A stretch of 64,000 nt of DNA from Sycon ciliatum (taxonomy: Eukaryota; Porifera; Calcarea; Leucosolenida; Sycettidae): assembly GCF_964019385.1 (NCBI RefSeq), contig NC_088643.1, positions 3,544,804 through 3,608,803 of the forward strand. The letters are read 5' to 3'. The notes below the pieces were generated by a model. The model did no database searches, was not told the DNA's origin, and was given only the letters and a program-made list of their open reading frames with translations. This document shows positions 11,456-36,349 of this stretch, piece after piece. How positions within the stretch are numbered: position 1 is the first letter of the stretch; each line of letters begins with the position of its first letter. Both the position numbers and the translations under genes were made by a program.

Positions 11456-14400
11456 TCAGACCTTCTCCAGCTCAGCCCTGAACTCATCAACGGCTCGGCG
11501 CAGTTTCTGTTCCTCACCAGGGGACTGACACTCGCGTAGCCAGCGCGACAGCTGGCGTAATATCACATCCTTCTGAATGGTGAAGTGCACAGCGATGATG
11601 TCTTCAAATCCTGGCGAAACAACACCAAGAAAGGAGTCATACAAAGGTTTAGAAAAAACATCAGTTGGAAACACGCTGCGACAAGGCCAACGACAACATG
11701 CATATCTAAAGTTCTACCACGAGTACATGGGCCACAACCAGCTAAAACATGTCTTAGGGTGAAAATTTTCAAATTTTGTTTTCCTCCAGAAAACAGTTCT
11801 TGGGACCTTACTTGACCTCTTGAAGGTGATACAGGGCAGAAAAGTAGTCTACAAGTGCCCCAAACACCGCTTTCAAAATGTGTACTTTGAAATAAAAATG
11901 ACAGTATTCGCACAGTCTGACACAAAGCGACAAACTATTACTTGGTGGCTTTTGTGGCGGAGCACAATACAACGGAACTAAAGATGTTGACACCGACTTG
12001 AGCATGTCAACGACATCAGTTCAAAGGCATGGCCCAAGTTCTTCCTGGAAAGCAACACGATGCGCTGGGCGGCGTTGCACTTGCATACTCTTTCGATTCT
12101 GGCAGTGACACTTTCGATCGCCGCCTGCGTTTCCCAGACTGCGTCAGACGCCTCATGAGAGCTGAACGCAAGTAACGTCGTAAGGCAGCCGGTTCGCCGC
12201 CTAAATGATTATGTACTAGCCCACAACTTGTGCCTCTTCACTACTGGAGACGACGGGGACGATTCAGCTTCGCTGTCGACATCAACATCAATGAGATCCC
12301 AACAAATTGTCAGCGTCGCTCTGCAGACCCGCCGCCACGGACTTGCAGACACCTGAACAAACCTGGGCCATGCACAGCGATCGTCTGGCCGTGCGAGCTG
12401 CTCTTGTATCACTAGATGCGGACATTGTCAGTCTTTGCTCGCCAGCTACTTGAAGTAGTACGCCAAACAAGTGTTTGAACAAAATTTGAGAAGATGATCA
12501 CCACATCATGAATCATTTGAATGAAGTGCAGAGTGAACGCGCTCCAAAAAACATTTTTTTCATTTCGTCATTTCCCAACTTTTTTACGAAACCCCAAAGA
12601 CATGTTTTAGCTGATCGCGGCCCACATAAGCTCCCAAAGGGTGTGCAACTCCTGATATCCTTTCTATGGCGTTTGCCGATGGCGAGAACTCACATCATGT
12701 GGTGCAGTGTTCCCTTTGTGTGCTCTCGGCCCGTTTTTAGCCAGCAGCAGAGTAGTAAAAACAGTATTCCCTGTGAGTTTTCGCCATCAGAGACAACACA
12801 CCATATGCAGAGTTGCACACTCTCGGGAGCTTATTTACTCTTGTTTCTATCCGACTGTGCTTGCACGTTACAGTACATTTGTACAATCAGGTACAGTTGT
12901 ACGAAATAGCGGTTGCGACTTCGGCGATGATTTTGTTAGGAATGGGTTTGCTCCCACAAGTAAAGTCGGCGGAATAGTGCGAGCTCCAGTGTGGGAGAAA
13001 AACCCATTCCTAACATGTCGCGCTGAGTGAAATCCAACTCAACGGGAATATCCAGCGCCCTGGACAGCCCTCAACGCCCTGGAAGTGGTGTGAATGCTGC
13101 CGGACGCACACATGTACACATACAGTGATGTGATCGGAAACGGTCCACGGCGTGAGCCAGCCTTGTACTTTGGGTCGGATTTCACCGAGCGCAACCGCTC
13201 ACGTAGTAAAGTCATGTACATGTCATGTCACGTCTGATGATCGGTTAAAACCGTGAAACTCAGAGTTACAGCAGAAACGCGTTTGATTCCTCTCAAGTGT
13301 GTGTAGTAAAGTCCAGTACATGTACATGTACTGTCTGTGTCTGTAAAGGCAGATTAGACACTGCTACAGTAGACCACATATCACATGGTCAAAAATTCTC
13401 AGAATGGCCAGCAGCTACGTGAATTATCACTAGTTCAGCTCCACGTACAGCCACCATAGCCCACACACAAGAGTGAACTAGCTGCCTTGAAGTTGAGGAG
13501 TGTGCAGCTCTGCAGGTGGGGGAGACTGACGGCGAAAACTCACATCATGCAAAGCATTCGCTTCAGTTCTGGCCAAAAAAACCCAATCCCTTGAGTCATT
13601 GTCACGCCAGCAGCTGCTGTACAGCCCCAGCCCTGTCAACACTGGGCTGTGCACTGCACTGGTGCAGGGTGCAAACTTGACTCACGCGAGCAGTACTATA
13701 CGTACGGTGCATGGCTTACCAATGGGTGGTTTACGTAGCATGCCCAGCATAGCATGGCGCACTGTGGATAGACGTAAACTAGCATTGTACTTGGTGCTAC
13801 GCTCCTGGAGTGTACAGACATCAAACACACACACACACACACACACACACACACACACGCACGCACGCACGCACACACATATGTACACACGCACACACAC
13901 ACACACATACACACACACACGCACACACACACACACATACACACACACACACACACAGACACACACACACACACACACACACACACACACACACACACAC
14001 ACACACACACACACACACACACACATGCACACACAAAAAAAGAACATGAGGAGACATACAAAACGAAAGCTTCTGCGAATAAGGTTGTGCGCTGACTGCA
14101 GTACAATGCCAAGGCTACCTTGTACACTCCTACTTACGTTTCCTTCCGTGGTTCCCCGCATCCGCTCATAGCCAGGCTCGTTGTACATGGGATCCGGGAT
14201 CAAGATCATGCCCTGGATAGACAACAAGACCTGGCACACACGTACACACACATACACAGACACACACACACACAGACACACGTACACACACACGTACACA
14301 CACGTACACACACACACACGTACACACACACACACACACACAAACACATGCACTGTCTTGGACATTGAAATCTGATGGGACGACAGCGGTCGGCAGGCAC

Positions 14401-36349: not shown

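Follow-up and report, generated by a model that had tools for sequence, protein, structure and literature searches.

The window analyzed here is a 64,000-nucleotide stretch of the genome of the calcareous sponge Sycon ciliatum (contig NC_088643.1, here C1; C1:3544804-3608803, 0 ambiguous bases). On its minus strand, most likely, lies one gene comprising at least exons N1 to C (36349-11456) and encoding a hybrid of a ubiquitin-conjugating (E2) and a ubiquitin-chain-elongating (E4) enzyme, in which the U-box of the Ufd2/UBE4 family is replaced by a ubiquitin-conjugating (UBC) domain of the BIRC6 type. Judged from sequence, the E4-E2 fusion is probably real and represents a new architecture. A sequence-only reading of the window had already proposed one E4-E2 polypeptide at 11456..36349. 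The proposal is partly supported, by a single open frame running through 34 GT-AG introns to a stop at 11456. The model opens at 38421 if two EF-hand exons belong to the gene, and the reading had missed these possible EF-hand and hydrophobic exons, two motifs resembling the VCP-binding motif (VBM) and the separate UBE4A-, UBE4B- and BIRC6-like genes of the genome (538 Mb in 313 contigs). Its remark that no such protein had been described agrees with the literature listed: no protein with both Ufd2P_core and UBC appears among the titles and abstract openings, with subscription journals, preprints and protein-database architectures outside that scope. Uncharacterized database entries of this architecture may exist.

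The gene model was assembled manually by reading the minus strand over 40.7-10.5 kb for open frames and splice sites. Joining 35 exons (38421-11456) gives 5241 coding bases and 1746 residues with a single terminal stop, and all 34 introns begin with GT and end with AG. Because the exon borders were chosen for frame, an unbroken frame does not by itself amount to independent evidence of a gene. A codon score trained on the model's other exons, with stops penalized, was compared over three frames; the frame used in the model came out best for 33 of the 35 exons, including v, w and x at the junction of the two halves. Splice-site scores were obtained by leaving one site out inside the same gene model.

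The Ufd2 core is encoded by exons f-t (19228..29922). In a Pfam run over the whole 1746-residue model at E up to 1, Ufd2P_core matched residues 720-1304 with E 1.9e-86 and 291.4 bits (cut-off 20.4), covering positions 5-576 of the 628 in the domain model. A search of the PDB with the core at E up to 1 returned UFD2 entries only (4 distinct sequences, about 63 bits). The peptides quoted in the sequence-only reading are present in the order given, two of them spanning an intron. Its naming of a UBE4B core holds as far as the Ufd2/UBE4 type. The locus is a third one with this core, distinct from the likely UBE4A and UBE4B of the genome, and the core scored 132 bits with human UBE4B vs 112 bits with UBE4A, too small a gap to call the gene a UBE4B derivative.

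Exon u (18456..18715) corresponds to the final helical part of the core. Its alignment with human UBE4B scored 40, matched by 1 of 5000 shuffles, and that with human UBE4A scored 37, matched by 7 of 5000. With a short piece of the sponge's own UBE4A the score was 24, matched by 197 of 5000 shuffles. These alignments suggest that exon u carries the core on almost to the site where a U-box would normally follow; the next exon v (17717..17938) starts with the end of the core (VKNLM).

Ufd2p-related proteins are described as having the core N-terminal to a C-terminal U-box (PMC3087547). The spliced model gave no Pfam match to the U-box at E up to 1. None of the 7 U-box matches of the genome falls in the window; 3 lie at the two sister Ufd2 loci and 4 elsewhere, and the U-box of one sister locus was still detected by the same search while being split across two exons. 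A local hidden Markov model (HMM) of the U-box gave no minus-strand match inside the gene among the matches listed, to E 16; the four U-boxes underlying it include two of the sister loci, whose own scores are inflated as a result. A hidden U-box exon is therefore ruled out at the sensitivity of the genome U-box search and the local HMM. The check suggested in the sequence-only reading, an HMM search of the translated exons against Ufd2P_core, U-box and UBC models, finds the core and the UBC domain and no U-box.

The UBC domain is encoded by exons x, y, z, A, B and C (11456..16765), which also contain the putative catalytic residue Cys1611, a C-terminal tail and the TGA stop (11458-11456). UQ_con matched residues 1538-1656 of the spliced model with E 6.1e-21 and 74.9 bits (cut-off 27), overlapped by a UEV match below its cut-off in the same Pfam run. 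Among the best 60 of 272 PDB matches to the UBC region, BIRC6 scored 250 bits and another BIR-containing E2 enzyme 237, followed by UBE2O-type enzymes (148 bits and less), UBE2Z (128 and less) and an entry named only Ubiquitin-conjugating enzyme (121), other E2 enzymes reaching 50.1 bits or less. Cys1611 was aligned to the Cys that BIRC6 has in DGKVCLSILNTW; the FNPN motif is retained as well. These alignments predict a BIRC6-type UBC that has kept its catalytic Cys, as had been proposed for the downstream exons. No BIR domain was found on the model and 0 of 13 genome BIR matches lie in the window, with the same search also blank at the likely BIRC6 locus. PF12356, a region of the BIRC6 family, had no match on the model, and its genome search matched nowhere and hence shows no absence.

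Six Ufd2P_core matches were found in the genome, at three loci including the window. The two sister loci, both with U-boxes, are likely UBE4A (C1:37.8 Mb) and likely UBE4B (C1:91.6 Mb). They were named by tblastn of their core exons with human proteins; their U-box exons do not separate UBE4A from UBE4B (68.2 vs 67.8 bits at one locus and 48.9 vs 49.3 bits at the other), and only scattered exons of both genes were recovered. The window gene is thus placed, by sequence comparison, as a third Ufd2 paralog with a UBC where the U-box is expected, extra to UBE4A and UBE4B, the duplication of which is dated to early animals (PMC3087547); the apparent presence of both points to an animal genome. The window UBC had 22 genome matches, 5 of them its own exons and none at the two sister Ufd2 loci. 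A likely BIRC6 gene lies at C1:58.59 Mb, where the stitched UBC is 70% identical to the human one (157/224). One frame upstream of it matches BIRC6 positions 4163-4234 at 1.4e-8, and another upstream frame from this locus gave no PDB match. Given this locus, the idea that the UBC exons of the window are the terminal part of the sponge's BIRC6 was rejected; their own identity to human BIRC6 is 48% (109/226).

Two more loci with BIRC6-family UBC domains were found at C1:85.52-85.54 Mb and C5:22.178-22.181 Mb. The window UBC is 55% identical to the C5 one (110/199) and 58% to the partial one from C1:85.5 Mb (79/136). In an unrooted tree of five sequences, the sponge's own BIRC6 and human BIRC6 form a pair (0.977), the C1:85.5 Mb UBC joins them (0.892), and the window and C5 domains stand outside this BIRC6 group. 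The own-genome UBC sequences used for the tree and the identities were stitched by eye. According to these comparisons, the predicted fusion gene is additional, being neither the sole E4 nor the sole BIRC6-type E2 enzyme of the genome. Since separate UBE4A-, UBE4B- and BIRC6-like genes are kept, the fusion would be an extra paralog that has not taken the place of the ordinary E4. Elsewhere in the genome, 44 of 89 UQ_con matches fall within 0.7 Mb (C7:33.93-34.64 Mb), and most of these are almost complete within a single open frame; this region is apparently a large cluster of intronless E2 enzyme genes.

The part of the model ahead of the core comprises exons a-e (30411..33532), exon N4 (33822-33766), the 11-nt microexon N3 (34336-34326), exon N2 (35250..35537) and exon N1 (35756..36349). 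Exons N3 and N4 were placed from frame and splice sites only, N4 being without codon signal, and exon b (32926-32885) is doubtful, with a codon score under that of intron sequence. Exon N1 holds a VBM-like motif (residues 152-161) and a low-complexity linker, and exon N2 a second such motif (residues 352-361). The published VBM consensus is EhRRRRLxhh, with an RF variant shown by RHBDL4 (PMC5389986), and the second motif has this RF variant. A relaxed pattern, drawn up with the motifs already in view and with fewer arginines than the published consensus, occurred 0.0004 times per shuffled protein. In a six-frame scan of the window it gave one further match, antisense, at 35935, and it had no match at the sister Ufd2 loci (50 kb covered at one, 40 kb at UBE4B). 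UBE4B is reported to bind p97 through an N-terminal VBM (PMC5559722).

Upstream of N1, exon E1 (38194..38421, minus) begins with an ATG and a signal-peptide-like start and contains the first EF-hand loop, DTNQDGKLDITE (residues 53-64). Exon E2 (36577..36796, minus), the nearest coding exon upstream of N1 on that strand, contains the second loop, DRDGNGYVTEEE (86-97), and then a hydrophobic segment followed by RHR. Membership of both exons in the gene is uncertain. Pfam matched an EF-hand_7 pair at residues 43-102 (E 4.3e-8, 33.8 bits, cut-off 30), along with weaker relatives and a SPARC match below cut-off; the ligand residues were judged by eye. Among all 19-mers of the model, residues 119-137 are the most hydrophobic (mean 2.12), ahead of one within the core (1.94). 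Both the signal peptide and the membrane span are proposed from hydropathy and inspection by eye only.

Exons E1 and E2 are only slightly more likely than not to belong to the E4-E2 gene. The donor of exon E2 (G|GTACGT, phase 1, score 9.9) agrees in phase with the acceptor directly before N1 (phase 1, score 5.4). Furthermore, a CpG-rich cluster lies upstream of exon E1 (39.7-40.2 kb), and the RHR past the hydrophobic segment would orient the E4-E2 part toward the cytosol, where it is required. Against these points stands the alternative that exons E1 and E2 form a separate small gene, the fusion itself being real, cytosolic and started elsewhere, at ATG 36503 or 36482 or in an unrecognized first exon. 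This is compatible with the E4-E2 fusion, concerns the N-terminus only and has a considerable probability, somewhat short of even. Exon E2 read on meets a stop after GTSSNASANIT, while the N1 frame is open upstream to 36551 with both ATGs in frame, the first ATG inside N1 being at 36191. A start near N1 would also put the first VBM-like motif close to the N-terminus, as in UBE4B (PMC5559722), and a second CpG-rich cluster, at 35.2-37.0 kb over exons E2, N1 and N2, could hold the promoter. With CpG-rich clusters at both places, composition does not decide the N-terminus. The only other copy of the EF-hand exon found, at C1:2991108-2991302, comprises part of exon E2 and the intron border; it is 92% identical over 186 bases (C1:2991085-2991270), lacks the hydrophobic segment and has a stop soon after. 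This copy is, from its identity, read as a recent partial duplicate that settles nothing on the E2-N1 join, and the idea that the EF-hand exon belongs to a separate gene family was dropped on the same ground.

The main rival to a single gene is that two adjacent genes are present: a Ufd2-core gene that lacks the U-box and ends at a stop just past exon v, followed by a free E2 enzyme of BIRC6 type that starts at an ATG in exon w. This is judged unlikely. Exon w (17394..17443) is a linker carrying the frame into exon x in its 50-nt form; a longer form of 84 nt was rejected as breaking this frame. The two genes would have only about 270 bases between them, largely TG-rich repeat. The v-w donor (GCG|GTAAGT) is strong, with only two of the 34 donors scoring higher, and acceptor scores are good at w (7.8) and x (8.1) within the range of 1.5 to 11.8 over the model. 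The 40 segments of 300 bases that are richest in CpG all start outside 13.0-35.1 kb, and thus there is no sign of a CpG-rich promoter ahead of the UBC exons. Two genes would also leave a Ufd2 protein with neither U-box nor E2 enzyme. The signals AATAAA and ATTAAA do not occur between the halves; they do not occur in the 2.4 kb past the final stop either and are therefore uninformative on one gene vs two. The tail of exon v is weakly like the segment preceding the UBC in BIRC6 (score 31; matched by 131 of 5000 shuffles for v and w together and by 64 of 5000 for the tail). If this likeness is real, it is suggestive of a fusion point inside exon v itself, and the joint would then be independent of splicing.

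Several observations weigh against the single fused gene. The w donor (ACG|GTACGG) has an unremarkable score of 7.3 and was picked because it keeps the frame. Read-through of exon v meets a stop 15 nt past the donor (17701-17699), and the in-frame ATG in exon w (17431) could begin a free E2 enzyme of 243 residues; the genome's other three BIRC6-family UBC loci are not joined to a Ufd2-core match. The likeness of exon v to BIRC6 (31) is slightly exceeded by that of a low-complexity stretch of the same protein (32), and no signal was obtained against the sponge's own C5 and BIRC6 UBC genes. Within the model, exons b and y score higher in another frame, and b and N4 score below zero, no better than intron. 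The Ufd2P_core match ends at position 576 of 628, and the core is divergent, with 22-24% identity to human UBE4B and UBE4A. Finally, a U-box-independent role of yeast Ufd2 in stabilizing Yap8 is reported (PMC4582114), and a Ufd2 core alone need therefore not be useless. That the locus is a pseudogene, a decaying UBE4 duplicate with a UBC gene or fragment downstream of it by chance, is very improbable: the core is indeed divergent and two U-box-bearing copies exist elsewhere, but a model can be drawn with 5241 coding bases free of stops and frameshifts and with 34 canonical intron borders, the catalytic Cys and FNPN are retained, and the codon signal favors the frame of the model in all but two of the 35 exons.

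A working scheme can be proposed for the fused E4-E2 protein. The UBC would be charged by an activating enzyme (E1), UBA6 being a first guess by analogy with BIRC6. The Ufd2 core and the N-terminal region would grip the substrate or its existing ubiquitin chain, and the tethered E2~ubiquitin could reach this chain directly, allowing extension without a U-box or a separate E2 enzyme. The VBM-like motifs might then hand the product to p97. For yeast, the U-box is described as essential for Ufd2p, Ubc4p as its E2 enzyme and N-terminal loops as chain-binding (PMC5303827). A UBC at the position of the U-box would hence be a functionally sensible swap, the donor E2~ubiquitin being tethered where the U-box would have brought it. 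If exons E1 and E2 belong to the gene, the EF-hand pair would be luminal or extracellular, followed by one membrane span and a cytosolic catalytic part, which suggests a membrane-anchored, calcium-binding E4-E2 enzyme. The full combination in a single chain (calcium-sensing EF-hands, membrane span, p97-recruiting VBMs, chain-holding Ufd2 core and a tethered E2 enzyme replacing the U-box) is a tentative and rather doubtful proposal. The single mRNA, the topology, the activity and the p97 binding are all predictions from the DNA.

E4 enzymes are thought to work by a U-box that recruits the charged E2 enzyme, and here the swap would have been made by evolution. If true, it becomes testable whether the Ufd2 core merely holds the chain near a charged E2 enzyme or whether the U-box must also activate that enzyme. 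The fusion would enlarge the short list of E2/E3 hybrids (BIRC6, UBE2O). Should the N-terminus belong as well, calcium sensing, membrane anchoring, p97 recruitment and chain extension would be brought together in one protein.

The introns and surroundings of the gene contain further features. A tRNA-Ser(TGA)-like gene lies within intron r-s (20340-20414, plus strand); its flanks partly repeat the tRNA by eye, and it is perhaps a tRNA-derived repeat. An imperfect, inverted repeat resembling a miniature inverted-repeat transposable element is seen by eye in intron s-t (19740-19900), as is a long CTG/TTG-rich repeat array in intron q-r (21500-20790, minus). Beyond the gene, the plus-strand frame at 3999-5567 encodes 523 residues with a DDE_Tnp_4 transposase domain (Pfam, 7.2e-41), and the minus-strand frame at 6124-8190 encodes 689 residues with no Pfam match at 0.001. 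A minus-strand frame at 42406-43707, in which Pfam matched a zinc knuckle (2.2e-10) and, under the cut-off, an aspartyl protease, is perhaps a retroelement. A histone deacetylase exon occurs at 45677-46027 (plus, Pfam 1.3e-18); its gene is apparently divergent from the E4-E2 gene, with a start near 40.3 kb by eye. The frame at 48817-49236 looked histone deacetylase-like and had no Pfam match.

The predicted protein shares with UBE4B, UBE4A and yeast Ufd2 the Ufd2P_core over nearly the whole domain model, and it may resemble UBE4B in having a VBM-like arginine motif N-terminal to this core. Unlike these enzymes, it has no detected U-box, carries a UBC instead and possibly has a membrane-anchored EF-hand N-terminus. 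BIRC6 (BRUCE), an E2/E3 hybrid, is similar in the type of UBC, the region of the catalytic Cys, the C-terminal tail and the plan of a large protein ending in its own E2 enzyme. The scaffold of the fusion is a Ufd2 core without a BIR match, in contrast to BIRC6, for which the genome has a separate likely gene. UBE2O, termed an E3-independent E2 (PMC12835413), and UBE2Z belong to the same broad UBC class, and the window UBC is nearer to BIRC6 (250 vs 148 and 128 bits). The joining of a UBC to an unrelated enzyme has a precedent in the PARP6/8 homologs with a UBCc domain described from Ascomycota, Basidiomycota, a moss and a green alga (PMC4245714), where the partner is a PARP and not an E4. The UBR4-KCMF1-CALM1 complex is described as an E4 that combines an armadillo scaffold with a subunit of the EF-hand type, its calmodulin being stably bound and not a reversible regulator (PMC7618180). 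In that complex calmodulin and the E2 enzyme UBE2A are separate chains (PMC7618180), whereas one polypeptide is proposed for the sponge protein.
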